From Sipunculus nudus (lineage: Eukaryota; Annelida; Sipuncula; Golfingiida; Sipunculidae), in contig CM049315.1 in NCBI GenBank assembly GCA_026874595.1, forward strand, positions 18,683,664-18,747,663: a DNA stretch of 64,000 bases, written 5' to 3'. Both the position numbers and the translations under genes were made by a program. Within the stretch, counting starts at the first letter, position 1. Each line of letters starts with the position of its first letter. The notes under the pieces are model-generated. The model searched no databases. It saw only the letters and a list, made by a program, of their open reading frames with translations, and had not been told where the DNA came from. Below are positions 28,301 through 58,200 of this stretch, piece by piece.

Positions 28301-31300
28301 TATTAATCATGAGATGTTCCAGCAGTTCCTGCAGACTGGTGGCGCCACCTGTATTTTTCGATTTTTTCGAATTGTTTTCTCTATTTTTGAGACCTTTAAA
28401 AATGTGAACATCTGTTAACAAGGCACAAATCATAAAGCCTGGACCTAGAATCTTCATTCTTTACACACTGAGAGACCTATGAAAAGTCTCCATGGAAACC
28501 AGAAATTAGGTCTCTGTTACCCATATCCTTTGAGCTATGGAGCCCCAAAGTACCCCCCCCCCAGAATAGTCAAAAATTTTATACAAAAACTTCAATATCT
28601 CATTAACTACATCACTGATGATCATGATTTTTTGCATACATATTGATCATGAGATGTTCCATCAGTTTCTGCAGACTGGTGGCGCCACCTGTATTTGTTC
28701 AGGTTTTTTTACGAATTGTTTTCTCTATTTTTGAGACCTTTAAAAATGTGAACATCTGTTAACAGGGCACAAATCGTAAAGACTGGACCTAGAATCTTCA
28801 TTATTGACACAGTGAGAGACCTATGAAAAGTCTCCATGGAAACCTGAAATTAGGTCTCTGTTACCCATATCCTTTGAGCTATGGCACTCCAAAGTACAGC
28901 TCAGAATAATGGAAAATTTGATACAAAAGCTGAGGTATCTGAACAACTAATGCAGAGATCACCATAATTGTTTGCATGGATATTGATCATGGAGTGTTTC
29001 ATTAGTGTCTGCAGACTGGTGGCACCACCTGTATTTGTTCAGGTTTTTTTACGAATTTTTTTCTCTATTTTTGAGACCTTTAAAGATATGAACATCTGTT
29101 AACAGGGCACAAATCATAAAAACTGGACCTAGAATCTTCATTCTTGACACACTGGGAGACCCATGAAAAGTCTCCATGGAAACCTGAAATTAGGTCTCTG
29201 TTACCCATATCCTTTAAGCCGTATGGCTCCAAAATACCCCCCAGAATAATGAAAAATTTGATACAAAAACTGCAGTATCTCAATAACTACAACACTGATG
29301 GTCATGATTTTTCACATACATATTGATCATGAGGTTTTCCATCCGTTTCTGCAGACTGGGTGTGCCACCTCTATTTTTTTTCAAATTTTTACGAATTTTT
29401 TTCTCTATTTTTGAGACCTTTTAAGATGTGGTTATATGTCAACAGGGTACAAATAGTAACAACTGGACCTAGAATGTTCATTCTTGTCATGCAAGGAGGC
29501 CCATGAAAAGTGTCTGTGGAAACCTGAAATTAGGTCTCTGTTTCCCATATCCTTCAAGCTATAGGACTCCGAAGTATCCCTCAGAATAATGGAACATTTG
29601 ATACAAAAGCTGAAGTATCTGAACAACTAATGCAGAGATCACCATGATTCTTTGCATGTATATTTACCATTAAGTGTTTTTATAAGTTTCTGCAGACTGG
29701 CTGAGCCACCTGTTTTTTTTTAAATTTACCCATTTTTTCTCTATTTTTTAAATATATATAAATTGCAGACACAATCTTGGCCTGTTGGTTAATCTGTTTG
29801 ATGCTTCAGTTGAATGGGTATATACTACCATTCAGATGATAAACTTTCCTTTTGCGAATCTCTTCCCAGTCAGCTGAGCGTCATGACCCATGGGTCACTT
29901 GTTACAATTTTTTTCTCTATTTTTGAGACCTCAAAAGATGCCCTCATCTGTTAACAGGGCACAAATTGTAAACGCTGGACCTGGAATCTTCTCACTTTAC
30001 ATCCAGAGAGACCCATGAAAAGTTTCCTTGGAAACCTGGAATTAGGTCTCTGTATGTGGCTTCCAAGTACCCCCCCCCCCCTCCCAGAATAATAGAAAAT
30101 TTGATACATAAGCTCAAGTATCTGAACAACTAATGCATTGATCACCACGATTTTTTGAATGGATATTGATCATGGAGAGTTCATCAGTTTCTGCAGACTG
30201 GTGGCGCCACCGGTATTTTTTATTTTTCACAATTTTCTCTATCTATTTTTGAGACCTTAAAAGATGCTGTCATCTATTAATAGGGCACAAATCATAACAA
30301 CTAGACCTAGAATCTTCTTTTTCTTGACAAGCTGGGAGGCCCATGAAAAGTCTCCTTTTTAAACCTTAAATTAGGTCTCTGTCATCCACATTGTCCGAGA
30401 TATGGGGCTCAAAAGTACCCCCAGAATAATTGAAAATGTGATACCAAAGTAGGCCACATATTATAACCATGGGGCCCAGAATCTCCTAACTTGACATCCT
30501 GAGAGTTCCTCAAAAGTTCTCCCTAGAGACCTGAAATTGGATCACAGTGACCTAAATTTTCAGTTTTTGGGTATGTTTAAGCACCCCAGAAATAATGCAA
30601 AATACACACAAATTGCCAGATTCCTCATGAAAACTGGTTGGACTGTCATCAAATTTGTTGTGCTTATGGGTCTTGATGAACTTAAGCTAATATCTATGAA
30701 CAATGATGCAACCTATCTTAACTAGACATTTCTTGGCACCGCAGGTGCCAGAGTATCCCCAGACATAGTAGCCCACCCCCCTTTAAGAATAGGCCCCCAT
30801 TTTTAGCAGCATATACTGACACTTGGCATATTTATTGTTTCTTCCATCTATCAATCCACAATCTTGTTGAAGATGTTAGTCCTGTGACCTTGATCTTTTT
30901 AAAGATGTGTCCTGTGACTTTGACCTTTGACCTCATGACCCCAAAATCAATTCGGGTCTTGCTTTTCCAATGGGACATATACAAGTCAAGTTTGAAATCT
31001 ATACATCAGTTAAGCAGGAATTATCATCCAGAAACTAATTTTTGGACAGATGGCTCCTGTGACCTTAACCTTTGACCTTGTGACCTCAAAATTGATAGGG
31101 GTCTTCCACTCTTGGCAGGTGAACTATATGTGCAAGATGAAAGATCTGAGATGAATTGTTTGGCTGAAAATGCATCCACATCTTTTTAAAGATGTCCTGT
31201 GACCTTGACCTTTGACCTCATGACCCCAACGTAAATTTGGGTCTTGCTTTTCCAATGGGACATATACAGGTCAAGTTTGAAATCCCTACATTAATAAAAG

Positions 31301-32600
31301 CAGGAATTATCATCCAGAAACTAATTTTAGGACAGATGGCTCCTGTGACCTTCACCTTTGACCTTGTGACCTCAAAACTGATAGGGGTTCTTCCACTCTT
31401 GGCAGGTGAACTATATGTGCAAGATGAAAGATCTGAGATGAATTGTTTGACTGAAAATGCATCCACAATCTTTTTAAAGATGTTTCCTGTGAACTTGACC
31501 TTTGACCTCATGACCCCAAAATCAATTTGGGTCTTGCTTTTCCAATGGGTCAAATACAAGTCAAGTTTGAAATCAATACATCAATAAAAAAAGGAATTAT
31601 CATCCAGAAACTAATTTTTGGACAGATGGCTCCTGTGACCTTCACCTTGAAATGTTTGGCTGAAAATGCATCCACAATCTTTTTAAAGATATGTCCTGTG
31701 ACCTTGACCTTTGACCTCATGACCCCAAATCAATTGGAGTCTTGTCGTTTTTTCAATGGGACATATATAAGTCAAGTTTGAAATCAATACATCAATAAAA
31801 GAAGGAATTATCATCCATAAACTAATTTTTGGACAGATAGTTCCTGTGGCCTTGACCTTTGGCCTCGTGACCCCAAAATTGATATGGATCATCCACTATT
31901 GGCAAGTGAGCTATATATTCAAGATGGAAGACCTGGGATGAAAGTTTGGCTTAAAATGCATCAACAGTACCTTTTAAGATGCCAGTCCAGTGACCTTGAC
32001 CTTTGACCTCATGACCCTAGAACCTATAGGGTTCTTACTTTAGTGGTGGGCCATACATAAGTCATGTTTGAAATCCATATGGCTATCAACATTGTAGATA
32101 TCATAAGAGGTGTGTGATTTTCACCATATATGGCAATATTCAAGGTCAAGGCCACTCTCATAGGAAAGGTCATGACCCCAATTTAAATAAGCATCATCCC
32201 ATAACCCATACCTATGTATATGCATAATATAAAAGAAATCGGTCCATTAGTTTTTGACTTATAATGCTCACAGTACTGTAAGGTGGCAATTTTCGGGGTA
32301 TTAAACGGCACAAAAACAAGTAAAGAATAATAGGTGGCGCCACCAGTTTCTGGAACATGACAACCCTATCCATGATCTTCCATCAACTTGATTTTGGGAT
32401 AAAATCCATGCAAGATTTCTTGAGATATTATAAAGAATTTGTGTGATTTTTACCCAAAATTCAACCTATTCAAGGTCAAGGACACTCTCCTAGTAAAGGT
32501 CATGACCTCATTTTAAATAGGCATCGTCCTCTTACCCATATCTATACATATACCAAGTTTGGTAAAGTTCCGTGAAATATTTTTTGGGTTAACGCGCCAA
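25310..32600. repeat. Repeat field with 340-bp monomers and inverted arms
   Basis: A mosaic of repeats with no gene. Left arm about 25320-25970 and right arm about 32095-32590 are diverged reverse complements of each other. Between them lie family A left ends at 26413, 26771 and 27994, right ends at 29903 and about 32742, and tandem monomers. The palindrome GGTGGCGCCACC occurs at least eight times (25534, 27130, 27279, 27566, 28338, 28678, 30200, 32333). Part of this field (from 29066) is included in the 13.1-kb duplication. Confidence 0.75.
27994..29903. mobile_element. Repeat family A, copy with 340-bp tandem core
   Basis: Left end TTTTTAGCTCAGCTGACTGT with GTCC/GTCTGTCC run at 28043-28080; right end CAGCTGAGCGTCATGACCCA to CTTGTT at 29903. 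The body is made of monomers that each restart at GAGACCTTT (28389, 28733, 29073, 29413; period about 340 bp). The outer ends match copies 1 and 2, but the interior is different. Confidence 0.7.
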
Positions 32601-32961
32601 CAAGATTTATATGCGGCGGCGGCGGTGGGACCGGTATGAAAACATAGTATCCCCCGACTTTGTCTGGGGATACAATTAGTTGTCTGTGCAAGGATATATT
32701 ATCAACATGTCAGTCGGCTGAGCGTCATGACCCATTGGTCATTTGTATAAATGAATCCCCTTTTTCAAGAGTGATTCACCGTATTGGCCCACATATTTGT
32801 TGAGAAATGTTGTTTCTCAAGTTGACAGATGGAAGAAACCATGGTCGCTTGCCAAGTGTCAGTATATGCTGCTGAAGTTGGGGGGCCTATTCTTAAATAG
32901 GGGGGGGGGGTTAATTGTCTGGGGATACTATGGCACCTGCTGAGCCAAGAAATATCTAGTT
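30720..32961. mobile_element. Long-TIR DNA element with DR1 repeat body (left copy)
   Basis: Ends 30720-30860 and 32820-32961 are reverse complements over about 130 bp (ACTAGACATTTCTTGGC on the left; GCCAAGAAATATCTAGT on the right). The target duplication is not resolved. The interior is a tandem repeat of GTGACCTTGACCTTTGACC units, roughly 145 bp apart, alternating in two types, followed by a (CGG)n-containing end with TATCCCCCGACTTTGTCTGG. No transposase is seen, so it would be non-autonomous. A family A right end is nested near 32742. Confidence 0.7.
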
Positions 32962-35461
32962 TTAATTATATATGTGATTTTCACCTGCAGCTGACATTAT
33001 CCTATGTGGCCTACTCTCAGTGAGGTGAAATAGGGGGGGGGGGGAGGACTATTTGAGGCTCTTGTATTAATTGTACATATTTGTTATGGGAAATTAAAAC
33101 AAAAACAAAGAATATTTACATCATTTGGTTTTAATACTGTGCAGATCACAACATGGCACTGGACATCACAGTTCACTGCTGGTCATCTTGACCAGCAATA
33201 CAGTGCCACCAGAAGCCCATGGACATCAGTTGTACAGTAATATCATAACTAAAGCTTACCTAGCACTTGCATTTACAACATGTACAAATGAAGTCATTCT
33301 CAGTCCATTATATACATGTGTGTATGTATTTATATATAATGTAATCATTCAGCTTTTACTGATATACACAATTTCCTAGTGCCATCTCAACTATAATTTC
33401 ATGTCATAAAAAGTAAATATGCAGCAAATTATTGTTGTGTCAAAGAAAACAAATTAGAGGTTCAACTTTAATGGGTTTCACTAAGTGATAATTATGATTA
33501 AACTTTACAGGAACTTCAAACTTATGACGTTAAAACAACCAGGCTATTCAACTTTATCAAATTTGGCACAAAAAATTTTTATGATATATATATATACACA
33601 CATGAACAACAAAGCACATACATTACTGTATGATGATTGGCTTAGTTACCACTCCCATATTATATCTTATTTCATGACAATTTTTGAGTGCATTAACCAA
33701 CATAGCTGCTTGTGCTTTCTCATACCATCATACTATTGAGCATTTTGTAGCAGTCACATCTAGCTAGGGCTGCCAATAGCTAACAAGATAAGATGCAATA
33801 AATAATGTATAAATAACTAAACAGGATATACACCAGTAGTGACTTCATGAATATCACAACATACATTATCACTTGCCAAGCTTTCTGCTCCCCTTCAAAT
33901 CATACATATTATGAATCAATATTCAAGAGCAGAAGAAAGAATAAGAAAAACATAGTGGGATATTACAGATCTGCAATGCAGAGAATAAAATTATGTAATG
34001 TTTAATACAAAACTGAAACTATAATGTACAAGGTCCATAGATGCAAATACCAGAATGCATAGTGCAGACAGCTTGAGAGTATTGAAAGTACAATATCAAC
34101 AGCTGCAACAAATGCACACATTTTGCAATAGAATATAAAACAACTGTCCCCATCTACAGTGTCAATACACAATACCGATAGTTACAAGATCAGAAACTGA
34201 ATGCATTATACCAACAGTGTTAAGATAAGAATGAATAATTTCCACAGTCACAGTGAATAAGTGTACAATACCAGTAACTCCCATGATAGAATATGTGAAA
34301 CTGACATTAAGAAGAGGTTACTGATAGTGAAACTAGTAGCTGCACAGATATAACTGAGATACAGATTGTAATGACAACATAATGCCTGATATTCATAAAA
34401 AAATACAGAATACCCCCAGTCATGTCATGTAGACAGAGTTTACAATTTTAGTACAGTAGTTGTGGTTACAGAATGCAGAATGGTGACAATTACAGCACAT
34501 TCCAGGGTTTTATGTCTGACTACACAATACTAAACATCATAAAGACAAGTGTCCAATCAACATTCTGTATTAATTGTACACAAAACTTTCAGCAGTCTTT
34601 TAAACTTACACTGGTACACACTGAACCAAAGCTACAGATAAACATGAGCTTTTTTTCATAAGCCAATTCTCAAGGATACAGAAACATTCATGAAATATCT
34701 TGTGTTACTCACAAACCTTCACTTTTAATGTTGTGCAGCTCAGAATCTTTAATCTATACAGATATATCATTACCATACTGTGATCTTTCTTGCAGACATA
34801 CAAACTTAATCCTCTGGTAGCACCATTCTTTCATCAAGATTAAAATAAGATCCTTACAGGAACCAAATCTAAGCATGACCTCCTCATACACCATCTTGTC
34901 ATAAAGCGACCACAGGGGTTAATAAGAGTAAGCAACTCCACTGATGCAGAACTGTGACCACAGACCATAAAGCAACGTTCAAGCATTGTGCATTAGTGTA
35001 ACATTCATAACCTTCAGATAAGTATATTTTGAAGAGATTATATATTGTCAGTCTAGATCAGGACACGCATATTAATATAAGATGTAACGCTTCTTAAAAT
35101 GTTTCCTGTGCTTTAACGTCGATGAAATAACTGAACCTGATCTAATACAGACTAAACAAACCATTTGTAGTCTTGTAGCATTCAACATAAAATTCAAATT
35201 TTATTTCTTTAAAACATCAAAACAGTTTGGATTGGAAATACTTAATTTATGTATATTTATCAATATTTGAAGAATATTATTAACATACTAAGTTTAATTT
35301 ACTTAATATTTCAACATAATATTTCAAATAATATAAAAAATTGACTAACTTTCCTTTACATCAATGATATGGGTAATTTTCACATTATATATTTAATTTC
35401 TACACAAGATACATAAGAGACCTACAAGTGGCTTTGCCACTGTACTTTGGGTGAAGTATAT
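32962..35461. other. HERC2 3' flank, left copy
   Basis: AT-rich and not repeat-like by eye; probably 3' UTR and downstream sequence of the left HECT block. No coding region. Confidence 0.5.
35200..35205 (-). terminator. Candidate polyadenylation signal, left copy
   Basis: AATAAA on the - strand about 255 bases past the stop codon at 35462. The same hexamer is kept in the right copy at 48357-48362. Other A/T hexamers exist further on. Confidence 0.35.
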
Positions 35462-35731
35462 TTAATCGGAGTCCTCGATTTCTCCCTCAGAGTCTGTGGT
35501 GCTTCCGATAGCATCACTCTCACTGTCCTCCGTGGTTTCCTCCTCCATGGTGTCCCCTGTGAGCGCGATGCGGGCATAGTCATCGATGTCAATGGTCTTA
35601 CAGAAGTGGATGGCGTACTTGAGCTTTTCTCTGAGAACGGACTTGCAGGAGTAGCGTGGCAGCTTCAGGAGAAAGAAGCACGTGTAGCTCTCGGGCAGGA
35701 AGTCGTCCGGGGGATTGTATTTGTCTAGAAC
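35462..35731 (-). CDS. HERC2: Left copy: last HERC2 exon (catalytic Cys)
   Basis: 90 codons: [20 protein letters not shown] onward to an acidic tail ending EIEDSD and TAA. YTCFF holds the HECT thioester cysteine. Protein-identical to the right copy. Confidence 0.92.
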
Positions 35732-35949
35732 CTGAAAAAAAGAACAACAGAAAAGTAAGGCATAAGCTATCAGGAGAAATTATGTCTAGGTATCGATAAT
35801 CAATTAATATCTGGTATGTTACCCATGTTGGCACTGGGACATGTCTGTACAACTTTGCCAGGGGACCAGTTTTCCATGGGCCAAGTTAACTTGCCAAAGT
35901 CACACACAGTGGCGTCAATTTTTCTTCCAGGGTGGGGGGGGGATGACTT

Positions 35950-36019
<70 letters not shown>

Positions 36020-39000
36020 TATATAACTATATATATATATATATATATTATATACATATATATACTTAATCATAATTCAAATAATTATAATGTTTTAGAA
36101 AAATAAGTTAGTTTGTGAATTCGTAGCAAGGTTTAGAAATAACATTTTTTAGTAAATAGATCCAAAGTCTTTAAATCAATTTATTAATATTTTTCATTTT
36201 CAATATTATAATATTATTCTCTGAAAAGTGTGGGGGGGGGGATGATTACATTGACCATCCCCCCTTACCAAAAAGTGGGGGGTATATATATTGATGAAGC
36301 TAGCAAAGAGACCAGATGTTCCAAATAAACATCCTTGGGATGTTTTTGGGACACTTGCATCTGTTTAAAGCCCTGTCATTTATTATCAAATTTTACAATA
36401 CTGAAAACATTTTCATTTGAAAATGTTCAGGGTAACAAATCTGTACTTTTAATAATTTTACATACCTGTAGGACAAAATCCCTTCCTCGGAAGTCTGCGA
36501 TGGTTCTGGGCAGCCTTGTGCGGCCCCAGACAAATCTCAGGAACAGGGAGCGCTCCGTGTTAGAGAACTCCTCCATGACTTCCCAGAACCACTGGACCAA
36601 TGACGCGCTGGCATCTACTCCTTTATATGTTGCTACGGATTTGAGCAAATTCAACGGAATGTCTGGACTTCCACATACCTGTAATTCAAACAGATGATCA
36701 CAAAACCTTTATACCAACAAAGTGTAAAGCCGGAAGCTTAACATAAAGGCTTTGGTTATGAGGGATCCAATAGTCATGATATGAATATATGTCTTTATTT
36801 GGACTGAAGTACATGTATACATAATGGTGCATTACAAAACAGGAAGAGAGTGCTTTGAAATTTTAAGTGTGTCTTTTTGTTAAAATAATTTACATTGCAG
36901 AATCTGATAATATGATTGCAAGTGTAATATGAAGGTGTTTAATAACATTGAGTTTTATCATGAGGTCACAAAAAAAGTCTCCAATATAATCAAATTAACT
37001 CTGTTGGAACCTGGCTTTCTAGTCACATAAATTTCAAGTACTTTTGAGGAAAATACAACACATACAACCAAGACAAGAAAGTGTGTTATAAGATGTATAC
37101 TTTTTTAAGACTTTTAAGCATCTTTGAAATATTTACGTATATTGTTTATCTGTTACCACCACTTACCATCGTCTCTAGTTCATAGCCTGTGAACAGCGAA
37201 AGCAGAGGGACTGGGGCCACTTTAGACATGCCCTCTCTGACCCACTGGACCTGATCATCAAACTCGTGCATCCTGCAAAGGTAAAACACATACTGCTTGA
37301 TACTATATCAGTTAATGATAATAGCATTAGATATAATTAATACTTCAAATTTATAACTGTTCAATAACTGAACAATTTGACATTTTAAGTTTCAACTTCT
37401 TATAATGACAGGTTCAAGATATCATTCTTTCAGTTTTTAAGTAAGAATGCAAATGTCCTGATATAAAACTATGAAAACCCTTTAAACAATTAAACTAACA
37501 ATGATCTGGGGTTATGGGAGTTATTGGATGAGGAGAACAACAGATTAAGGGGGTTGTTAATTCCTGGTTTTTGTACTGAAAGATAATGAGGAGAGCTTTC
37601 GCCAACAAACAAGTATGTCTTTTTTGGCTTATCTTATTGGCAACTTTGGAGTGGCAGGCTACAAAGAAACATTTATGACCACCACAGAGATTGGGTTTAC
37701 ACATCAGTTTAATCACTGACACATTTTCTGTTGTATGAATACTGTGAAGACCAACTATCTACAACAGGACAGCGATTCTGGTGCAGCGTTTTCTACTAAC
37801 GGAGTGCTTCGTGCGACGGGGGTCTGAAATTCAGTGTAACATAGAAATGCAACCACCTGGCGGAAACCCCCTGCATTATTTCCCACGAGAATATCTCGTT
37901 TACTTGGTCCATTAATTTAGGTGCTTAGTCATCAGTTATTATCCTTGCTCAATCATCAGTTAATATATTGACATTATCAATGTCTTATTCCACTGATATT
38001 TGTGTAAATAAAGTTAATGAATCATATTTTTTCGTTTTGTTCTTATTCTGCTATCTTGTCATAATAGATGATGAATGTGTATGATGTGAATGATATTTTG
38101 TGTCCTTTCTATCAATGTATGTGCTCACCAGATGTACAATAAGTATGTGTGTGTTCCTTTCAGAGAAATCAGATAAAATTCTCCATTGTTCATACCTGAT
38201 ACACCATATCCTAAAACTGGCAAAAAAAATCCAATGCTAAAAGTTGAAAATGAACTCTAAATATGAAGCCAGTTCCTTCCTCCACTGACATTATTATGAA
38301 CTAAAGAGTATTTTCTGACAATCATATATGCGCAAATTATACTAGAACAAAATCATCCCAATCAAGTTCAAAAATGAATTGTCAAAATAAGGCCATCGCT
38401 TACATGGTATGAGGGGCTATAAAGCATTTTCTGGTGATTAATATATGGCAATTAATACCAGAAGGAAATAATCCCAATCACCAGCTAATCACTTTGATCT
38501 CATTAATAATGGTCGTCTGCAAGGCTTTTCCTGTTAATCTTATTAATGACCGCCGTCGGGTTAATCCCTCTGTCCAAATAACTGGGCATAATCAGCCACG
38601 ATCCTAGACCCCCGTCGCACGAGGCAAGTCCACTAGTACGACCGGGTATTGTTGTTTCACAAGTGCACTTAAGCGGAACTGGTTATGTGGGGGGGGAACT
38701 CCTTCCTGCGACCACCCCCCCCCCCCCTGTCATAGAAATGACGGCCTTCTAATAAATATGTCCAATATGAATGCTGAGTAGTATATTCACAACATAGTGA
38801 AAGTCAAGATTGAGCCTTGTTTTTACATTGAGACCATGGCCTGTAAACATACAACTAGGTCAGACAGATGAAATATAACTACAACATGAATTTACTGCTG
38901 AAACTTCCTACAGCTGGTTGTTACCTGTAATTCAGAGCCAGCCTGACATACTCCTGGCGGTTCTCAGGGGTGATGCGTGTATGTTTAGCGCTGAGCTGTA

Positions 39001-42000
39001 CCTCATGACCCGTAGCACTGGGTGTGCTGAACGGCATGTCAGCAGCGATCAGCTGGTCCTCCTCCATGTCCTTGATGTACATCAGACCTGTCAATCAAAA
39101 CAGACGTGTATAAAATATTGCTAAATATCTTCTGTGGACAAGAGAGAAAAGTCTGATTCGCAATGCTAACATTAAGACTGCTTCATCTGATCCTACTATA
39201 ATTTGTAGATAATGGTACAGTCAACTCCAGAGCATTCCTCAGGGTTATAATTACAAAATACAGGTCTAATGGCCACAAAACTCTCTTTGCAGATAGATGT
39301 CCACCTTTAGGCTGTCCATTAAGTACTTTCCTGTAATTTTTCTGTGCCCTGGACTCACAAATATTTCGAAGCCACTCATGGGGGCTGCTTAAAACCTGGA
39401 TGTTTAAACCTGGATACTGGATTTAATGGTATGCCACTACTGTTGATCCGTAACTGAATGATCCACAAGGAGAATTCTATATTTGATCAGTGATTGTACC
39501 TGGTACATAGTCTTTGTCGACTTCGTTGATGTCACTGACGCTGAGCGGCATTCCCGCCAGCTGCTTCCACATAGGCTCAACCAGGTTGATGCTAAGAGGG
39601 CTTCCTGTTCGTATAGCGATCCCGAGCAGCATGCCTGATGATTGAAAATATACAAAAGGAAGTTAAGATGGACAATAAATGCTGAGTACATTAGGCGATG
39701 CTTGAGTGACCTCCTGGCTACCTGACCACCTACCATTAACAACTGTTTTTCTCTGGCATAGACAGTTTTACAATAAAATGTACCTTAAGCTACCACCTGC
39801 CATACCTGGTCCCTGCCAATCAAGATTAACTGCCATTCAGGTCTAAACTGACAAAGAGAATTTCTCATTACTGGCACCACACATCTACAGATCCTTTCAG
39901 ATACACAGATTTACACATCTTACTTTTCAATACATTTGTTTCAATGTTTCCATTTTCAAATATATCTACATGCTTATGTAACCTATATGCATATATGATC
40001 TATATGCACAAATAAATCTACTAAGTCTATTTATCATTTTTAAATTTTAAAATCTATCTTTATATGGACTGAACATTATCCATACCAAGGAAGTTGAACA
40101 TGTTTTGGTGAATCACTGATTTGGAGCTCGGGTTGAATAGGAAGCAGTCTCGGTTAGCCCCAGCTTCACCTCGTCCATTTGGTGTTATCATTAGGAGGGG
40201 GGTAGAGCCGTTCTGTAACTCATCACACATCTCAGCGATGGACTCGCTGTAACCTCCGCCACAGTCATCCACACTCTCTCCTGCAATCGACAGATCAAGC
40301 ATGTAGCATTTTATGTTTTGGCCGATTATTTATTAAAGGATTCAGAAAGAAATCAAAGCATGCAAATATAATGTTATTACGGCTAATCAGTACGCATACA
40401 GCCATGTGGTAATTGGAGCAAAATGATATGAATTTATGTTTGTTTCTAAAATAATAGGTTTTGTGTTAACACATTCATGCATAATATTGTGTGTGTGATC
40501 ATTGAAATGAGAATTTCTTTATGAAATTAATTGTAAATGCAACCTAATTGTAAATATATATGATTTAATTGAAAAAAAAAAATATTTTCTGTTTCAGAAT
40601 ATTCATTTAAAATTATCTTACCTGCATGAGGTAAAACAAAATTATCTTTAACCTCTTTATCATCCATAACAAAATATGACAATCTATATCCAACAGTCCT
40701 TGCCCTTAAAACAAGTCATCAATAAAGAAAGGGGTAACATGTATAAAAGTTAGATAAAGAAAAATGTATTTACCAATAAATTTGACTTTCCACACTCTGT
40801 GAGGCAACATAAGGGAATCGGGTCCAAACGCTGACATCTTGGTACAAATCTGACCGAATACTGATTTTGTGCCATCTGGGCCAGCCAAGCCACCTTTGCT
40901 GCGAGATCGCTTCACCTGAAAATCATTAACAAATTCAATCATTTTTTATAAGACAGGTCCATGGCCTGTAGGTTGCACTGTCCATTCAGTTAGGATGAAG
41001 GTAATCAGATGATAAGAATGGTGTGTTATTATTAAGCCTTTTGGATTTCATGTTTTTTATGCACAGGGATAGGAATAATCCAAAGTCATGACCTGTCATT
41101 AAGACATTAGAGCAAATCTCTATCAGAGATTCTATCTCTATCAAATCTCTTTACCCCATCAATCAAGATGTTATTTTCATGTTGCTCAGTCTAGTATCTG
41201 GACATTAAATGACATATCAAAGAAACAATCAACATGTACATGACTCAAATAATTGAGAGAAACATCACCATCCCACTAGCTACCAAATCATGTGTTTCTG
41301 TGCCATTATCAAACTGTGATCTCACTCACGGAAATTTCAAAACCACCCATAGGGGCTCCTATTCTGCATACAGACTAAAATCCTGATGCTGAAAACCAAT
41401 TTCTGGAACTAAGGGTATGTTACTTGTAAAACTAAAGAGTGTTTTCACTTCCTTCATTACACACCTGAATTCTGTTGATTTCAATCACAGGTCCGTGTTG
41501 GCGGTCTCTGATCATTGTCGCTTGGACAACCTTCCTAAATGCTGCCTCCTGGATAGATGAGAGGGGTGTTTTATAATTTAATGAACTATGTAACCAATTA
41601 TATGACAAACAAAACTAACATTTTAAATATCTGGTTAAGCAATCTGCATATTTGACACCAATATGTGTGGGTTAAGAAATTACCACATAACAATTATATA
41701 AATTTATTTTTTGGCAAATGTAATTCAGCAAAAAGCAATCATTTTGCTGTTTACAGCAGAACAATTATTTTTACAATATGTAAGTATATTTATTAAAGTA
41801 AGAATGAATGTACTTTATTATTGCATGTAGAACATGGTGTATAACTACCTTGGCAGCTGACACTAAGATCCCTTGGAGCATATCTGGACCAAGGGCTGGG
41901 TTGGCCTTTTCTTTACACATCACACTGTGCTGGAGATCAAACATCGGAATGGATGGACAGAAGAGATCAGAGAAATGGTGGAGGAGAACAAGTCTATTGC

Positions 42001-42141
42001 GCAGCACAGGAATGTCAATGCCCTGCAGGTGGTTGTACTCCATTGGAATGATTGATGGCAGCTTCCCAGCATTGATTGGTTTGTTGGTGGACCATGCCAG
42101 ACTGTGGGCGGAGCCACAAGCAACCCTGTTGATCTTCTTCC
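35462..42141 (-). CDS. HERC2: Orphan duplicate of the HERC2 3' end (HECT block), nine exons
   Basis: Exons 41849-42141, 41465-41548, 40774-40915, 40086-40280, 39500-39634, 38925-39087, 37167-37272, 36466-36678 and 35462-35731, all with GT-AG ends and no stop: 532 codons covering the end of the third RCC1-like domain and the complete HECT domain. It lacks every upstream HERC2 exon because the duplication breaks about 18 bases beyond the first acceptor. The catalytic cysteine (YTCFF, codon 35678-35680) is present. Compared with the right copy only two amino acids change: Ala to Val (39579-39581) and Arg to Gln (41873-41875). In both cases the right copy keeps the residue I recall from vertebrate HERC2. 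It could be a young gene fragment, an alternative 3' cassette or a haplotype artefact. Confidence 0.85.
35907..36290. mobile_element. Truncated hAT-like MITE (left copy)
   Basis: Begins CAGTGGCGTCAATTTTTC after GTCACACA, as in the complete copy at 49064-49495, but the 3' end and about 700 bp of flanking intron are missing; the sequence jumps at TATATATA to TTGATGAAGC. Includes a long (AT)n tract. Confidence 0.75.
36466..36678 (-). CDS. HERC2: Left copy: HERC2 HECT exon
   Basis: 71 codons, [20 protein letters not shown] through [14 protein letters not shown]. Phase 0 at both ends. One silent difference from the right copy. Confidence 0.92.
37167..37272 (-). CDS. HERC2: Left copy: HERC2 HECT exon
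   Basis: 106 nt, [15 protein letters not shown] through [11 protein letters not shown], with donor GTAAGT. Confidence 0.92.
37793..38638. repeat. Inverted-repeat element in HERC2 intron (left copy)
   Basis: Arms at 37793-37825 and 38605-38638 share TCGTGCGACGGGGGTCT in opposite orientation with weaker similarity outside. The interior of about 780 bp has no open frame. Present at the same intron place in the right copy (about 51706-52551). Confidence 0.5.
38925..39087 (-). CDS. HERC2: Left copy: HERC2 HECT exon
   Basis: 163 nt, [19 protein letters not shown] through EYVRLALNY. Codons split at both ends fit the neighbours. One silent difference from the right copy. Confidence 0.92.
39500..39634 (-). 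CDS. HERC2: Left copy: HERC2 HECT exon (Val variant)
   Basis: 135 nt, [17 protein letters not shown] then [11 protein letters not shown] and EVDKDYVP. Valine in VEP replaces alanine of the right copy. Confidence 0.92.
40086..40280 (-). CDS. HERC2: Left copy: HERC2 HECT exon
   Basis: 195 nt, [20 protein letters not shown] and [13 protein letters not shown], the start of the HECT N-lobe. Confidence 0.93.
40774..40915 (-). CDS. HERC2: Left copy: HERC2 exon before HECT
   Basis: 142 nt, [20 protein letters not shown] through [11 protein letters not shown], near identical to vertebrate HERC2. Confidence 0.94.
41465..41548 (-). CDS. HERC2: Left copy: HERC2 28-codon exon
   Basis: [20 protein letters not shown] to NRIQ; donor GTGTGT. 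In the right copy the donor is altered by a LINE insertion. Confidence 0.92.
41849..42141 (-). CDS. HERC2: Left copy: HERC2 exon, end of third RCC1-like domain
   Basis: 293 nt, [18 protein letters not shown] through [22 protein letters not shown] and ILVSAAK. Glutamine replaces arginine in MLQG. The acceptor CTCTTCAG is retained, but only about 18 further intron bases remain before the duplication junction. Confidence 0.92.
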
Positions 42142-46122: not shown

Positions 46123-48618
46123 AATTATATATGTGATTTTCACCTGCAGCTGACATTATCCTATGTGGCCTACTCTCAGTGAGGTGAAATAGGGGGGGGG
46201 GAGGACTATTTGAGGCTCTTGTATTAATTGTACATATTTGTTATGGGAAATTAAAACAAAAACAAAGAATATTTACATCATTTGGTTTTAATACTGTGCA
46301 GATCACAACATGGCACTGGACATCACAGTTCACTGCTGGTCATCTTGACCAGCAATACAGTGCCACCAGAAGCCAATGGACATCAGTTGTACAGTAATAT
46401 CATAACTAAAGCTTACCTAGCACTTGCATTTACAACATGTACAAATGAAGTCATTCTCAGTCCATTATATACATGTGTGTATGTATTTATATATAATGTA
46501 ATCATTCAGCATTTACTGATATACACAATTTCCTAGTGCCATCTCAACTATAATTTCATGTCATAAAAAGTAAATATGCAGCAAATTATTGTTGTGTCAA
46601 AGAAAACAAATTAGAGGTTCAACTTTAATGGGTTTCACTAAGTGATAATTATGATTAAACTTTACAGGAACTTCAAACTTATGACGTTAAAACAACCAGG
46701 CTATTCAACTTTATCAAATTTGGCACAAAAAATTTTTATGATATATATATATACACACATGAACAACAAAGCACATACATTACTGTATGATGATTGGCTT
46801 AGTTACCACTCCCATATTATATCTTATTTCATGACAATTTTTGAGTGCATTAACCAACATAGCTGCTTGTGCTTTCTCATACCATCATACTATTGAGCAT
46901 TTTGTAGCAGTCACATCTAGCTAGGGCTGCCAATAGCTAACAAGATAAGATGCAATAAATAATGTATAAATAACTAAACAGGATATACACCAGTAGTGAC
47001 TTCATGAATATCACAACATACATTATCACTTGCCAAGCTTTCTGCTCCCCTTCAAATCATACATATTATGAATCAATATTCAAGAGCAGAAGAAAGAATA
47101 AGAAAAACATAGTGGGATATTACAGATCTGCAATGCAGAGAATAAAATTATGTAATGTTTAATACAAAACTGAAACTATAATGTACAAGGTCCATAGATG
47201 CAAATACCAGAATGCATAGTGCAGACAGCTTGAGAGTATTGAAAGTTCAATATCAACAGCTGCAACAAATGCACACATTTTGCAATAGAATATAAAACAA
47301 CTGTCCCCATCTACAGTGTCAATACACAATACCGATAGTTACAAGATCAGAAACTGAATGCATTATACCAACAGTGTTAAGATAAGAATGAATAATTTCC
47401 ACAGTCACAGTGAATAAGTGTACAATACCAGTAACTCCCATGATAGAATATGTGAAACTGACATTAAGAAGAGGTTACTGATAGTGAAACTAGTAGCTGC
47501 ACAGATATAACTGAGATACAGATTGTAATGACAACATAATGCCTGATATTCATAAAAAAATACAGAATACCCCCAGTCATGTCATGTAGACAGAGTTTAC
47601 AATTTTAGTACAGTAGTTGTGGTTACAGAATGCAGAATGGTGACAATTACAGCACATTCCAGGGTTTTATGTCTGACTACACAATACTAAACATCATAAA
47701 GACAAGTGTCCAATCAACATTCTGTATTAATTGTACACAAAACTTTCAGCAGTCTTTTAAACTTACACTGGTACACACTGAACCAAAGCTACAGATAAAC
47801 ATGAGCTTTTTTTCATAAGCCAATTCTCAAGGATACAGAAACATTCATGAAATATCTTGTGTTACTCACAAACCTTCACTTTTAATGTTGTGCAGCTCAG
47901 AATCTTTAATCTATACAGATATATCATTACCATACTGTGATCTTTCTTGCAGACATACAAACTTAATCCTCTGGTAGCACCATTCTTTCATCAAGATTAA
48001 AATAAGATCCTTACAGGAACCAAATCTAAGCATGACCTCCTCATACACCATCTTGTCATAAAGCGACCACAGGGGTTAATAAGAGTAAGCAACTCCACTG
48101 ATGCAGAACTGTGACCACAGACCATAAAGCAACGTTCAAGCATTGTGCATTAGTGTAACATTCATAACCTTCAGATAAGTATATTTTGAAGAGATTATAT
48201 ATTGTCAGTCTAGATCAGGACACGCATATTAATATAAGATGTAACGCTTCTTAAAATGTTTCCTGTGCTTTAACGTCGATGAAATAACTGAACCTGATCT
48301 AATACAGACTAAACAAACCATTTGTAGTCTTGTAGCATTCAACATAAAATTCAAATTTTATTTCTTTAAAACATCAAAACAGTTTGGATTGGAAATACTT
48401 AATTTATGTATATTTATCAATATTTGAAGAATATTATTAACATACTAAGTTTAATTTACTTAATATTTCAACATAATATTTCAAATAATATAAAAAATTG
48501 ACTAACTTTCCTTTACATCAATGATATGGGTAATTTTCACATTATATATTTAATTTCTACACAAGATACATAAGAGACCTACAAGTGGCTTTGCCACTGT
48601 ACTTTGGGTGAAGTATAT
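46123..48618. other. HERC2 3' flank, right copy
   Basis: Nearly identical to 32962-35461; non-coding and AT-rich. Probable HERC2 3' UTR at its right side. Confidence 0.5.
48357..48362 (-). terminator. Candidate HERC2 polyadenylation signal
   Basis: AATAAA on the - strand about 257 bases after the stop at 48619; conserved in the left copy. Confidence 0.35.
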
Positions 48619-48888
48619 TTAATCGGAGTCCTCGATTTCTCCCTCAGAGTCTGTGGTGCTTCCGATAGCATCACTCTCACTGTCCTCCGTGGTTTCCTCC
48701 TCCATGGTGTCCCCTGTGAGCGCGATGCGGGCATAGTCATCGATGTCAATGGTCTTACAGAAGTGGATGGCGTACTTGAGCTTTTCTCTGAGAACGGACT
48801 TGCAGGAGTAGCGTGGCAGCTTCAGGAGAAAGAAGCACGTGTAGCTCTCGGGCAGGAAGTCGTCCGGGGGATTGTATTTGTCTAGAAC
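48619..48888 (-). CDS. HERC2: HERC2 last exon (catalytic Cys, stop)
   Basis: 90 codons ending TAA at 48619-48621; acceptor TTTTTTTCAG. HECT C-lobe with [10 protein letters not shown] and [20 protein letters not shown]; acidic serine-rich tail. Confidence 0.95.
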
Positions 48889-49107
48889 CTGAAAAAAAGA
48901 ACAACAGAAAAGTAAGGCATAAGCTATCAGGAGAAATTATGTCTAGGTATCGATAATCAATTAATATCTGGTATGTTACCCATGTTGGCACTGGGACATG
49001 TCTGTACAACTTTGCCAGGGGACCAGTTTTCCATGGGCCAAGTTAACTTGCCAAAGTCACACACAGTGGCGTCAATTTTTCTTCCAGGGTGGGGGGGGGG
49101 ATGACTT

Positions 49108-49204
<97 letters not shown>

Positions 49205-52200
49205 CTATATATATATATATATATTATATACATATATATACTTAATCATAATTCAAATAATTATAATGTTTTAGAAAAATAAGTTAGTTTGTGAATTCGT
49301 AGCAAGGTTTAGAAATAACATTTTTTAGTAAATAGATCCAAAGTCTTTAAATCAATTTATTAATATTTTTCATTTTCAATATTATAATATTATTCTCTGA
49401 AAAGTGTGGGGGGGGATGATTACATAGACCATCCCCCCTTACCAAAAAGTGGGGGGTATATATACCCCCCATCCCCCCTTATATTGACGCCCCTGGTCAC
49501 ACAGTTGGCATAGTTTCTCATAGATGGCACTGCAATAGACCCTTTGAAAAATAATTAAAACTCCTCATTATTCATGAGGAAATATGGTAAATGACTCCCT
49601 CAGGATACACTTGGCATCATTCTCAATAATTTAAGACCATAAATTGACATATCTACGTTGTAGCCACAGGGGAGTTCCATGACATATATTCAGTGCCACC
49701 ACTGCCAGTTATAATATACACAGGCTGGCCATAAGCAATGAGAATTTACATTAAGACCTATTACCAGACCAAGTTCAGGGACTGGTTATTGATAGAAATG
49801 GGGCAAGACATGAGAAGAAACATAAACACTGATTACTGGTTTATATCACCTTTATATATTTTACAACGATTGTTCAACTGGTTATATTCACAAATACCAG
49901 GCATCCTCCATGCCTCAGATGGCAGTGTTCAGTATCTGTAAGGGGGGGGGGGAGGAGGGGAGGAAACAGGAAAACCCTGAAAAAAACAACAGACCTTGGA
50001 CAGGCAATTAAAACCATGCTGGGAATCTAATCCAAGTTACCAGCGGAGAGAGCCGAGCGTTTCACCACTAATCTGTCCAGGCCCCACTGGTTCATGATGA
50101 TTGATGATATTTTAATGACCTGAAGATCTATAAAATTCTTTGAAATCAATATGGCCCTCAACATATCAAAGGTTGAATATAAATAGTCAAAGTACCATAG
50201 TGTCTTGATGAAGCTAGCAAAGAGACCAGACGTTCCAAATAAACATCCTTGGGATGTTTTTGGGACACTTGCATCTGTTTAAAGCCCTGTCATTTATTAT
50301 CAAATTTTACAATACTGAAAACATTTTCATTTGAAAATGTTCAGGGTAACGAATCTGTACTTTTAATAATTTTACATACCTGTAGGACAAAATCCCTTCC
50401 TCGGAAGTCTGCGATGGTTCTGGGCAGCCTTGTGCGGCCCCAGACAAATCTCAGGAACAGGGAGCGCTCCGTGTTAGAGAACTCCTCCATGACTTCCCAG
50501 AACCACTGGACCAATGACGCGCTGGCATCTACTCCTTTATATGTTGCTACAGATTTGAGCAAATTCAACGGAATGTCTGGACTTCCACATACCTGAAATT
50601 CAAACAGATGATCACAAAACCTTTATACCAACAAAGTGTCAAGCCGGAAGCTTATCATAAAGGCTTTGGTTATGAGGGATCCAATAGTCATGATATAAAT
50701 ATATGTCTTTATTTGGACTGAAGTACATGTATACATAATGGTGCATTTCAAAACAGGAAGACAGTGCTTTGAAATTTTAAGTGTGTCTTTTTGTTAAAAT
50801 AATTTACATTGCAGAATCAGATAAAATAATTGCAAGTGTAATATGAAGGTGTTTCATAACATTGAGTTTTATCACGAGGTCACAAAAAAAAGTCTCCAAT
50901 ATAATCAAATTAACTCTGTTGGAACCTGGCTTTCTAGTCACATAAATTTCAAGTACTTTTGAGGAAAATACAACACATACAACCAGGACAAGAAAGTGTG
51001 TTATAAGATGTATACTTTTTTAAGACTTTTAAGCATCTTTGAAATCTTTACGTATATTGTTTATCTGTTACCACCACTTACCATCGTCTCTAGTTCATAG
51101 CCTGTGAACAGCGAAAGCAGAGGGACTGGGGCCACTTTAGACATGCCCTCTCTGACCCACTGGACCTGATCATCAAACTCGTGCATCCTGCAAAGGTAAA
51201 ACCCATACTGCTTGATACTATATCAGTTAATGATTATAGCATTAGATATAATTAATACTTCAAATTTATAACTGTTCAATAACTGAACAATTTGACATTT
51301 TAAGTTTCAACTTCTTATAATGACAGGTTCAAGATATCATTCTTTCAGTTTTTAAGTAAGAATGCAAATGTCCTGATATAAAACTATGAAAACCCTTTAA
51401 ACAATTAAACTACCAATGATCTGGGGTTATGGTAGTTATTGGATGAGGAGAACAACAGATTAAGGGGGTTGTTAATTCCTGGTTCTGTACTGAAAGATAA
51501 TGAGGAGAGCTTTCGCCCACAAACAAGTATGTCTTTTTTGGCTTCTCTTATTGGCAACTTTGGAGTGGCAGGCTACAAAGAAACATTTATGACCACCACA
51601 GAGACTGGGTTTACACATCAGTTTAATCACTGACACATTTTCTGGTATATGAATACTGTGAAGACCAACTATTTACAACAGGACAGCGATTCTGGTGCAG
51701 CGTTTTCTACTAATGGAGTGCTTCGTGCGACGGGGGTCTGAAATTCAGTGTAACATAGAAATGCAACCACCTGGCGGAAACCCCCTGCATATTTCCCACG
51801 AGAATATCTCATTTACTTGGTCCATTAATTTAGGTGCTTAGTCATCAGTTATTATCCTTGCTCAATCATCAGTTAATATATTGACATTATCAATGTCTTA
51901 TTCCATTGATATTTGTGTAAATAAAGTTAATGAATCATATTTTTTCGTTTTGTTCTTATTCTGCTATCTTGTCATAATAGATGATGAATGTGTATGATGT
52001 GAATAATATTTTGTGTCCTTTCTATCAATGTATGTGCTCACCAGATGTACAATAAGTATGTGTGTGTTCCTTTCAGAGAAATCAGATAAAATTCTCCATT
52101 GTTCATACCTGATACACCATATCCTAAAACTGGCAAAAAAAATCCAATGCTAAAAGTTGAAAATGAACTCTAAATATGAAGCCAGTTCCTTCCTCCATGG

Positions 52201-55200
52201 ACATTATTATGAACTAAAGAGTATTTTCTGACAATCATATATGCACAAATTATACTAGAACAAAATCATCCCAATCAAGTTCAAAAATGAATTGTCAAAA
52301 TAAGGCCATCGCCTACATGCTATGAGGGGCTATAAAGCATTTTCTGGTGATTAATATATGGCAATTAATACCAGAAGGAAATAATCCCAATCACCAGCTA
52401 ATCACTTTGATCTCATTAATAATGGTCGTCTGCAAGGCTTTTCCTGTTAATCTTATTAATGACCGCCGTCGGGTTAATCCCTCTGTCCGAATAACTGGGC
52501 ATAATCAGCCAAGATCCTAGACCCCCGTCGCACGAAGCAAGTCCACTAGTACGACCGGGTATTGTTGTTTCACAAGTGCACTAAAGCGGAACTGGTTACG
52601 TGGGGGGGCCTCCTTCCTGCGACCACCCCCCCCCCCCCTGTCATAGAAATGACGGCCTTCTAATAAATATGTCCAATATGAATGCCAAGAAGTATATTCA
52701 CAACATAGTGAAAGTCAAGACTGAGTCTTGTTTTTACATTGAGACCATGGCCTGTAAACATACAACTAAGTCAGACAGATGAAATATAACTACAACATGA
52801 ATTTACTGCTGAAACTTCTTACAGCTGGTTGTTACCTGTAATTCAGAGCCAGCCTGACATACTCCTGGCGGTTCTCGGGGGTGATGCGTGTATGTTTAGC
52901 GCTGAGCTGTACCTCATGACCCGTAGCACTGGGTGTGCTGAACGGCATGTCAGCAGCGATCAGCTGGTCCTCCTCCATGTCCTTGATGTACATCAGACCT
53001 GTCAATCAAAACAGACGTGTATAAAATATTGCTAAATATCTGCTGTGGACAAGAGAGAAAAGTCTGATTCGCAATGCTAACATTAAGACTGCTTCATCTG
53101 ATCCTACTATAATTTGTAGATAATGGTACAGTCAACTCCAGAGCATTCCTCAGGGTTATAATTACAAGATACAGGTCTAATGGCCACAAAACTCTCTTTG
53201 CAGATAGATGTCCACCTTCAGGCTGTCCATTAAGTACTTTCCTGTAATTTTTCTGTGCCCTGGACTCACAAATATTTCAAAGCCACTCATGGGGGCTGCC
53301 TAAAACCTGGATGTTTAAAGTCACATACTGGATTTAATGGTATGCCACTACTGTTGATCCGTAACTGAATGATCCACAAGGAGAATTCTATATTTGATCA
53401 GTGATTGTACCTGGTACATAGTCTTTGTCGACTTCGTTGATGTCACTGACGCTGAGTGGCATTCCCGCCAGCTGCTTCCACATAGGCTCAGCCAGGTTGA
53501 TGCTAAGAGGGCTTCCTGTTCGTATAGCGATCCCGAGCAGCATGCCTGATGATTGAAAATATACAAAAGGAAGTTAAGATGGACAATAAATGCTGAGTAC
53601 ATTAGGCGATGCTTGAGTGACCTCCTGGCTACCTGACCACCTACCATTAACAACTGTTTTTCTCTTGCATAGACAGTTTTACAATAAAATGTACCTTAAG
53701 CTACCACCTGCCATACCTGGTCCCTGCCAATCAAGATTAACTGCCATTCAGGTCTAAACTGACAAAGAGAATTTCTCATTACTGGCACCACACATCTACA
53801 GATCCTTTCAGATACATAGATTTACACATCTTACTTTCCAATACATTTGTTTCTATGTTTTCATTTTCAAATATATCTACATGCTTATGTAACCTATATG
53901 CATATATGATCTATATGCACAAATAAATCTACTAAGTCTATTTATCATTTTTAAATTTTAAAATCTATCTTTATATGGACTGAACATTATCCATACCAAG
54001 GAAGTTGAACATGTTTTGGTGAATCACTGATTTGGAGCTCGGGTTGAATAGGAAGCAGTCTCGGTTAGCCCCAGCTTCACCTCGTCCATTTGGTGTTATC
54101 ATTAGGAGGGGGGTAGAGCCGTTCTGTAACTCATCACACATCTCAGCGATGGACTCGCTGTAACCTCCGCCACAGTCATCCACACTCTCTCCTGCAATCG
54201 ACAGATCAAGCATGTAGCATTTTATGTTTTGGCCGATTATTTATTAAAGGATTCAGAAAGAAATCAAAGCATGCAAATATAATGTTATTACGGCTAATCA
54301 GTACGCATACAGCCATGTGGTAATTGGAGCAAAATGATATGAATTTATGTTTGTTTCTAAAATAATAGGTTTTTGTGTTAACACATTCATGCATAATATT
54401 GTGTGTGTGATCACTGAAATGAGAATTTCTTTATGAAATTAATTGTAAATGCAACCTAATTGTAAATACATATGATTTAATTGAAAAAAAAATATATTTT
54501 CTGTTTCAGAATATTCATTTAAAATTATCTTACCTGCATGAGGTAAAACAAAATTATCTTTAACCTCTATATCATCCATAACAAAATGTGACAATCTATA
54601 TCCAACAGTCCTGGCCCTTAAAACAAGTCATCAATAAAGAGAGGGGTAACATGTATAAAAGTAAGATAAAGAAAAATGTATTTACCAATAAATTTGACTT
54701 TCCACACTCTGTGAGGCAACATAAGGGAATCGGGTCCAAACGCTGACATCTTGGTACAAATCTGACCGAATACTGATTTTGTGCCATCTGGGCCAGCCAA
54801 GCCACCTTTGCTGCGAGATCGCTTCACCTGAAAATCATTAACAAATTCAATCATTTTTTATAAGACAGGTCCATGGCCTGTAGGTTGCACTGTCCATTCA
54901 GTTAGGATGAAGGTAATCAGATGATAAGAATGGTGTGTTATTATTAAGCCTTTTGGATTTCATGTTTTTTATGCACAGGGATAGGAATAATCCAAAGTCA
55001 TGACCTGTCATTAAGACATTAGAGCAAATCTCTATCAGAGATTCTATCTCTATCAAATCTCTTTACCCCATCAATCAAGATGTTATTTTCATGTTGCTCA
55101 GTCTAGTATCTGGACATTAAATGACATATCAAAGAAACAACCAACATGTACATGACTCAAATAATTGAGAGAAACATCACCATCCCACTAGCTACCAAAT

Positions 55201-58200
55201 CATGTGTTTCTGTGCCATTATCAAACTGTGATCTCACTCACGGAAATTTCAAAACCACCCATAGTGGCTCCTATTCTGCATACAGACTAAAATCCTGATG
55301 CTGAAAACCAACTTCTGGAACTAAGGGTATGTTACTTGTAAAACTAAAGAGTGTTTTCACTTCCTTCATTACACACATTCTTCTTCCACCTCCACATAGT
55401 AACATATACGAAACCAGATTTGTAATACACAACCTTACTCCAATACAAGCAAGAACTGATTTATATTTCAACTCTTTTCTCCCAAAATCAATCAGATTAT
55501 GGAACCAAATGGATCTTGATAAGAAAGCTTGCTTAACAAGTGCCTCATTAAACTACCAATTGAAAAAATCAGCTCTAAGAACTAAAACACCTACGTACTA
55601 CAACTCAGGAACCAGAAAATCACAAATAATCCATGCACGCATGAGAATGAAATGTAGTGATCTAAATTATCATATGTACACAAGACATATTAGTGACACA
55701 AAAAAATGTCAATGTGGCCACCCATCAGAAGATCCCAACCACTACCTACTGCAATGCCACCTGTATAACTCCACTAGGAAAACATACTTACCTAGGGATA
55801 CCCCATTAAAAGTTTTACTTTTTGGTAACCCAAAAATAGATGACAAATCAAACAAGGAAATATTCGAATCGGTAGCAAACTTTATTGAAAACTCAAACAG
55901 ATTCTAACATAAAATAATTTGATGATTTTGACAAACTCATCCCACACCCACCAAAACTCTCTCTCTCCTCTCAACTGGCACCATACACTTTCCAAATCAC
56001 AACTAAAAACATAGTCATTATGCTATCCACATCTTCCATGATACTCGAGTCATCAATATGTTAACATCACACCCCCCCCCCCCCCCTTGCCATGCATCAG
56101 AAAATTACCACTTTAGAATTCAGGAGCGAGCTTCATAAGCTTTAAGTAGCTTGCGCTCAATCTATTGATACATGTTTATATTTATATATGTGCTTAGGTA
56201 GAATACCACATGAATGTACTTACTATGTATTGTGTCAATAAATCATTCAAACCAAACCTGAATTCTGTTGATTTCAATCACAGGTCCGTGTTGGCGGTCT
56301 CTGATCATTGTCGCTTGGACAACCTTCCTAAATGCTGCCTCCTGGATAGATGAGAGGGGTGTTTTATAATTTAATGAACTATGCAACCAATTATATGACA
56401 AACAAAACTAACATTTTAAATATCTGGTTAAGCAATCTGCATATTTGACACCAATATGTGTGGGTTAAGAAATTACCACATAACAATTATTTAAATTTAT
56501 TTTTTGGCAAATGTAATTCAGCAAAAAGCAATCATTTTGCTGTTTACAGCAGAACAATTATTTTTACAATATGCAAGTATATTTATTAAAGTAAGAATGA
56601 ATGTACTTTATTATTGCATGTAGAACATGGTGTATAACTACCTTGGCAGCTGACACTAAGATCCCTCGGAGCATATCTGGACCAAGGGCTGGGTTGGCCT
56701 TTTCTTTACACATCACACTGTGCTGGAGATCAAACATCGGAATGGATGGACAGAAGAGATCAGAGAAATGGTGGAGGAGAACAAGTCTATTGCGCAGCAC
56801 AGGAATGTCAATGCCCTGCAGGTGGTTGTACTCCATTGGAATGATTGATGGCAGCTTCCCAGCATTGATTGGTTTGTTGGTGGACCATGCCAGACTGTGG
56901 GCGGAGCCACAAGCAACCCTGTTGATCTTCTTCCCTGAAGAGCCAATAGGTGATTATTTACCACATTAATAGTAGCACATCATGGTGTGATAGAAACAAG
57001 TACTGTAAAGCATCGCATAATTAATATACCCAAGTATCAGAAATGTACACTACTGCTACAGTGTAGCTGATATATATTTTTGTTGGCTTCATGATCATGA
57101 GATTAAATCCTTGTAATAGTCCCTTTTTCAGTGTTTTTGCAGGGTTCCACTTTCATGATCTCCCCATATGAACAGTAAAAAGAGTAAGTCAATAGGAAAT
57201 AATAATTTACCTGCAAGTCAGACCGTGACAATGATTTTCTATAATTTAGATTTTTTTTATATGTAAGCAGTCTTATAATCTGACAAAGGTAAAAAGGGAA
57301 CAAGAGCAGAAATTCATTTTTGTAACTGACAGACAAGCTAAAACATCGGATAACATTTATAATATCAATCTCTCACTCACAGGTTACACAAGAGATTTAT
57401 GATTATTAATAGTATGAATTATGGCTTTACACTCTTGATGAGATATGCAAGGGTTACATACCATGGTTGGCTTTTTTGTTCGCAAGGGTTTTAAGTTCAC
57501 GATATTCGCGAATGGGAAATTATCACGAAAATAAAACCTTCCAGAATAAGAGGCCCTGTGTTCTACACAGGTGAACAGTAATTCATTTCAATGGCACCTC
57601 ATGTATATTGTGCCGGTAGCATCAATATTAGCATATATTTTATGTTTCCCATAATGCAAAGGTTGATAATTTGAACAATATTAATTCTTTTTATAGCTGC
57701 CACTATTGCACGAAGAATTTCCTCCTGTTCAATGTTCCCATAGCTCCACATATCACTGTAAGTATTTTGCGTGCAAACTAGGTAATTGATCTTATAATGG
57801 TCATGTACGCTGTGTAAATTACTGTACAGGGTTAATCTCGAAAATTAAACCCTCGCGAAAGACTGAAGAAGTGAACATCGCAAAGTTTAACATTGCTAAG
57901 GCCCCCCTTCTCAGAAGATATGGTTCTAAGGCACTTTTTTCAGAAACAGTGCACACGGGTGAATTTTTTTTTTTTACCTTTTTTTTGTATGTTTTGATAA
58001 AATTGTCATATAATCCGGGAAAAGCATGATAATAAAAGAATTCTGTTTACTAAACAGGTATAAGCACTACATAATACAGGAAATCTAATCAATATTGTAT
58101 TATATTTATCTTCTTGAAAGAAAGGTCAGAGCAGCTGGAGCTAAAAATTGGTAAGTTTCTATTTAAAAAAAAAAATTAAAATTTTTGATGCAGGGGGCTA

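Follow-up and report, generated by a model that had tools for sequence, protein, structure and literature searches.

The window analyzed here is a stretch of 64,000 nucleotides of the Sipunculus nudus genome (GenBank assembly GCA_026874595.1, contig CM049315.1, positions 18,683,664–18,747,663, forward strand; positions below are those of the window). It contains, on the minus strand, the 3′ end of a gene that we identify as HERC2 in two direct, abutting copies, named L (left, 29066–42165) and R (right, 42166–56960), which were delineated by self-comparison, alignment and exon analysis and are bordered by unique flanks. Self-comparison of the window covers 29066–42167 against 42166–56960 with five collinear direct matches of 98.1–100% identity. 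In a global alignment, the copies differ at 106 of 13,051 aligned bases (0.81%) and are interrupted by 19 gaps, one of which consists of nothing but the TA left at the cut. R has additional sequence at both of the largest gaps, of 740 and 881 bp, and the alignment also shows R-specific differences of 35 and 18 bp near 43022–43135. The window and the 100 kb to either side of it (264 kb in total) contain no N. A first-pass annotation of this DNA had described two direct copies that meet at about 42166 without a gap, in agreement with the self-comparison and with the lack of N, but its length of 13.1 kb for the copies has to be revised for the right one, which measures 14.8 kb.

Each copy carries nine exons, E1 to E9, of 293, 84, 142, 195, 135, 163, 106, 213 and 270 nt. 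The internal exon borders are AG/GT in both copies, and either set of exons reads as a single open frame of 532 amino acids. In L, the exons lie at 41849–42141 (E1, preceded by 26 nt of native intron), 41465–41548 (E2, donor GTGTGT), 40774–40915 (E3), 40086–40280 (E4), 39500–39634 (E5), 38925–39087 (E6), 37167–37272 (E7), 36466–36678 (E8) and 35462–35731 (E9, with the stop codon). The equivalent positions in R are 56642–56934 (E1), 56258–56341 (E2, donor GTTTGG), 54686–54827 (E3), 53997–54191 (E4), 53411–53545 (E5), 52836–52998 (E6), 51082–51187 (E7), 50380–50592 (E8) and 48619–48888 (E9, again with the stop codon), and R has its first candidate poly(A) signal 64 nt past the stop codon, at 48554. 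R continues into the next upstream HERC2 exons, which encode RCC1 repeats and are present as a single copy in the window (59438–61461, minus strand, from the domain search), so that R forms the 3′ end of a complete gene. L, with its nine exons and 3′ flank, is an orphan 3′ fragment; no promoter was seen, an independent product is unlikely, and the fragment would presumably be silent. The earlier statements that the last nine HERC2 exons occur twice and that only the right copy is joined to the rest of the gene both stand: the same nine intact exons and a HECT domain were recovered, and R alone extends upstream.

The HECT domain (PF00632, E = 5.6e-65) occupies residues 191–489 of the spliced L protein, on which the scan was run and from which the R protein differs by two residues. 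The closest solved structure by sequence is that of HECTD3, and the name HERC2 does not occur among the 55 chains listed at E ≤ 1e-20. RCC1 domains were detected in three separate minus-strand stretches, namely the 59–61 kb region of the window, L012 and L017–L018, together with a Cyt-b5 domain in L017 and a ZZ domain in L013, which lie on the same strand to the right of R. Ten stretches were scanned (the exons were scanned separately), six of which contained domains, five of HERC2 type and one of cyclophilin type, and four of which contained none. We take the architecture of HERC2 to be three RCC1-like domains, with cytochrome-b5-like and ZZ domains upstream and a HECT domain at the C-terminus; on the combination of HECT, RCC1, ZZ and cytochrome-b5, the predicted gene is HERC2.

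The junction between the copies can be traced to two breakpoints. At the intact place of the R-side breakpoint (56960), the sequence reads ...ATTATTTA then CCACATT; at the satellite-side breakpoint (29066), it reads CTC then TATTTTTGAG. The junction at 42166 reads ...ATTATTTATTTTTGAG, in which R-side and satellite-side sequence are joined over a TA (42166–42167) that fits both sides. This comparison confirms that the microhomology is limited to these two base pairs, as had been noted before. The R-side break lies 26 nt upstream of E1, in single-copy intron sequence. The left breakpoint lies inside an array of ~340-bp tandem units (28079–29717) of a dispersed satellite, and the same units recur at 42166–42848. 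A 301-bp query across the junction has at least 41 matches in the genome, a lower bound drawn from the best 40 of 1,037 candidates scored; three belong to the HERC2 locus, and 38 lie elsewhere and cover the satellite part only. Five satellite loci elsewhere were compared with the array, and each carries it in many units. As a family, the ~340-bp satellite is spread over many chromosomes in short arrays. A second tandem array, of ~290-bp units, is present in both copies (30893–31648 and 43971–45238) and differs in length between them by an 80-bp gap.

The pair stands out in its surroundings. Across the 264 kb, no direct-repeat pair exceeds 95% identity and 300 bp apart from the five matches between L and R, which argues that the pair is not due to chance; 17 pairs are listed above 92% identity. 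The frequency of similar gapless tandem pairs is known solely from these 264 kb of an assembly of 1.43 Gb in 153 contigs, in which the window lies on a 79.6-Mb contig. Searched against the assembly, a 951-bp query spanning exons 4 and 5 matched at full length at exactly two sites, namely L and R; the other three of the five candidates (all scored) were short and 71–77% identical. The assembly therefore contains no spare haplotig of this part of the gene.

The divergence between L and R is not uniform. In non-coding sequence, likelihood analysis places a single change point at L 36016 = R 49174, with a support interval of 35874–36252 that coincides with a (TA)n run, where the alignment is less certain. 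To the left of this step, 19 of 6,637 non-coding sites differ (0.29%), compared with 82 of 4,813 (1.70%) to the right. The log-likelihood gain is 32.9, whereas 200 permutations never gave more than 7.3. Further change points were rejected, as their gains of 5.5 and 4.3 remain under the permuted maximum. Uniform ageing of the two copies was likewise rejected, both by the change point and by the variance of mismatches per 500 bp, which is 13.9, against a mean of 4.2 and a maximum of 9.6 in 5,000 random placements. The first-pass annotation had called the divergence low, from about five differences counted by eye in 1,601 coding nucleotides; our computed count is also five, but the divergence is not evenly low.

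Both large indels sit at or to the right of this step. The 881-bp block of R (55376–56256, plus strand, from alignment and genome search) is a 5′-truncated copy of a long interspersed nuclear element (LINE)-like repeat that ends directly behind the GT of the R E2 donor. It occurs in at least 39 other places at 95–99% identity (from the best 40 of 296 candidates scored). Of five other copies that were fetched, four match the fifth over ~2.1 kb at 97.6–99.1%, beyond the point at which the copy in R begins, and the R copy matches this same fifth copy over 880 bp at 98.9%. The close family matches and the truncation relative to the ~2.1-kb copies indicate that the insert in R is young and derived. 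A frame at 55305–55907 (plus strand) resembles by eye the final part of the reverse-transcriptase protein of a LINE, and a Pfam search of this frame gave no match. No clear target-site duplication beyond ~2 bp was found in the flanks, which is atypical for a LINE. The family as a whole (55376–56256 and L035–L039) is young, has many copies at 95–99% identity, and was probably active recently. The insertion changes the R E2 donor from GTGTGT to GTTTGG and weakens its pairing with U1 from −9.4 kcal/mol in L to −7.0 kcal/mol in R. The idea that the LINE has broken the donor finds no support, because the other seven donors span −4.7 to −9.9 kcal/mol and the R value falls inside this span.

The 740-bp block (49465–50204 in R, by alignment and genome search) is missing from L between 36290 and 36291. 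At full length it matches itself only, the other 39 listed matches being partial and 69–80% identical (best 40 of 1,459 candidates), and it contains two old dispersed fragments. Given that the whole block has no match other than itself among the 40 candidates scored, a mobile insert is not supported, and the block is best read, from these comparisons, as ancestral intron sequence that L has lost.

The five coding differences comprise three synonymous and two nonsynonymous changes, the latter being Gln (L, codon CAA) versus Arg (R) in E1 and Val (L, codon GTT) versus Ala (R) in E5. Under neutrality at the local rates, 18.2 nonsynonymous and 5.2 synonymous changes would be expected; even with only one copy free to change, ~9.1 nonsynonymous changes would be expected versus the two seen (Poisson P = 0.006). 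This deficit suggests that both sequences were under selection for most of their separation, either because they diverged as alleles or because both have been used. From the step and the coding conservatism, the divergence looks allelic in kind. The 0.29%/1.70% step and the scarcity of amino-acid changes fit two alleles, and they also fit a real duplication that exchanged sequence with a homologue.

From the copies, the junction, the exons, the step and the LINE, we infer, with somewhat better than even confidence, a DNA molecule that carries a real and young tandem duplication, perhaps still variable, which arose by joining at a microhomology and in which R subsequently exchanged sequence with a single-copy homologue. 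The two breaks would have occurred in the array of ~340-bp satellite units that follows the gene and in the intron ahead of E1, and the ends would have been joined over the 2-bp microhomology by end joining or by replication template switching. The resulting order would be satellite, L, satellite, R and the rest of HERC2, which would remain complete because R retains its join to the upstream exons. R would then have undergone a single crossover with a single-copy homologue close to the (TA)n run (at ~49.2–49.4 kb), by which its right part, the LINE included, would have acquired the sequence of another haplotype; this would account for the low divergence on one side of the step and the high divergence on the other. 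In favour of a real duplication, the junction requires a physical cause, as its two ends overlap by no more than 2 bp and no gap lies between them. One crossover also predicts what is seen, namely one step and no large indel to the left of it. Further points in favour are the single-copy intron on one side of the junction, the lack of any other direct pair above 95% identity in the 264 kb, the lack of a spare haplotig of the exon 4–5 part and the membership of the LINE insert in a young family. The first-pass annotation had offered a recent duplication or two haplotypes placed end to end; both proposals remain, and an exchange with a single-copy homologue had not been considered.

Several points weigh against a real duplication with exchange. 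Ordinary variation in haplotype age along a chromosome can yield the same step, and a crossover is one of several routes to it, the others being gene conversion or an origin of the duplication between two homologues. The deficit of amino-acid changes and the presence of the LINE in one copy and not in the other resemble two alleles, as would also be predicted if L and R were a single locus in its two haplotypes, which a chimeric read or an erroneous gap fill had joined head to tail. Such a false heterotype duplication is a tentative but substantial alternative, to which we give roughly one chance in three. The divergence is allele-like in its level, in its step and in its coding conservatism, the two full-length places of the exon 4–5 query are what would be expected if both haplotypes had been placed here, and one end of the junction lies in a dispersed satellite (38 of the 41 listed query matches lie elsewhere), which can trouble assemblers. 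In the figures given by Ko et al. (2022; PMC9516828), 4 to 16% of the sequence of three older assemblies was falsely duplicated. On the other side, there is no N at the junction or across the 264 kb, where a filled gap is still conceivable; the joined ends have TA alone in common and offer no overlap for a false join, which would have to come from gap filling or from a chimeric read; and no second pair of this kind is present in the 264 kb, a small sample of 1.43 Gb.

The same source provides points of comparison on both sides. Where Ko et al. (2022; PMC9516828) describe false duplications, these are marked by gaps or by joins that reads do not support, and an allele-specific tandem duplication within one contig proved true. 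The S. nudus pair resembles their false heterotype duplications in its near-identical adjacent copies on one scaffold, its apparently allele-like divergence and its orphan gene part, for which their example is nine of the 11 coding exons of ZBTB11 (PMC9516828); it differs in that no gap separates the copies. It also resembles their true allele-specific tandem duplication, whose copies are adjacent, gapless and on one contig, and which they established by read depth (PMC9516828), whereas here the duplication is deduced from the assembled sequence.

A simple partial pseudogene, in which one sequence was duplicated, R remained constrained and L drifted freely with no exchange, is very improbable. 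The loss of 740 bp from L would agree with it, as would the two amino-acid differences, at which R has what we take to be the human HERC2 residues, so that the change would lie in L (Arg to Gln in E1, Ala to Val in E5). Against it, uniform divergence is rejected, L keeps its frame and all its splice borders, free of premature stops and frameshifts, and two nonsynonymous changes are seen where 9–18 would be expected, a shortfall that is significant even with one copy free. Still less probable is the use of L as an alternative HECT cassette, in which transcripts that run past the poly(A) site of R would be spliced from an upstream exon to L E1, or from R E1 to L E2 so as to avoid the LINE-altered donor: all acceptors and donors of L are intact, E1 with its AG and 26 nt of intron, the reading frame stays open as far as the stop codon, U1 pairs more strongly with the E2 donor of L than with that of R, and few amino-acid changes would fit two copies in use, but the weaker R donor falls within the range of the others and needs no rescue, transcription would have to cross the poly(A) signals of R (the first candidate being that at 48554) and ~6 kb, and an allelic origin is the cheaper explanation of the conservatism. 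Were the cassette used, HERC2 would have two C-terminal ends, with a catalytic domain duplicated as a 3′ exon block within reach of one gene, and the spare would let R tolerate a LINE behind its exon-2 donor.

The neighborhood of the duplicated segment includes a P4-ATPase (phospholipid flippase) gene at approximately 319–18000 (plus strand), tail to tail with HERC2. TIGR01652 matches four of the five flippase reading frames scanned, as fragments under the curated cut-off, and solved flippase structures match two of the frames of this gene, which we take to resemble ATP10. In human, ATP10A shares the 15q11-q13 region with HERC2, and the adjacency of flippase and HERC2 may be an old neighborhood. 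A Gypsy-like retroelement with reverse transcriptase, RNase H and integrase domains lies within the flippase gene at 7691–11246 (minus strand), perhaps extending to 13320, and a weak PNMA/gag-like match, under its cut-off, was found at 12751–13320. On the other side, a cyclophilin-type gene lies upstream of HERC2 on the same strand (L020:7898–8137, minus), and long overlapping frames that are retroelement-like by eye occupy a HERC2 intron (L016–L017, right flank, ~118.9–123 kb in extended window coordinates). A tRNA scan with bacterial settings found none.

Whether it is a tandem duplication of part of a gene or a fault of the assembly, the phenomenon is of an ordinary kind, and partial copies of HERC2 are already known in human. 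There, the duplicons and pseudogenes of 15q11-q13 are likewise parts of HERC2 copied near the intact gene (PMC3171312, PMC2394762), and the accounts given in these sources concern large segmental duplications at several sites (blocks of ~100 kb, PMC3171312) with pseudogene copies. The S. nudus locus has one tandem copy of 13–15 kb with the last nine exons and an intact frame, and no common origin is suggested. What is new beyond the earlier description is the non-uniform divergence with a single change point, the LINE behind the R E2 donor, and the 740-bp block. Either outcome is a local matter. If the pair is an artefact, it is a warning that haplotypes joined head to tail without a gap can persist in assemblies of chromosome scale and give rise to a false HERC2-like gene. 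If it is real, it would be a fresh partial-gene tandem duplication whose copies carry different haplotypes, and would show how a duplicate can begin its existence already diverged.

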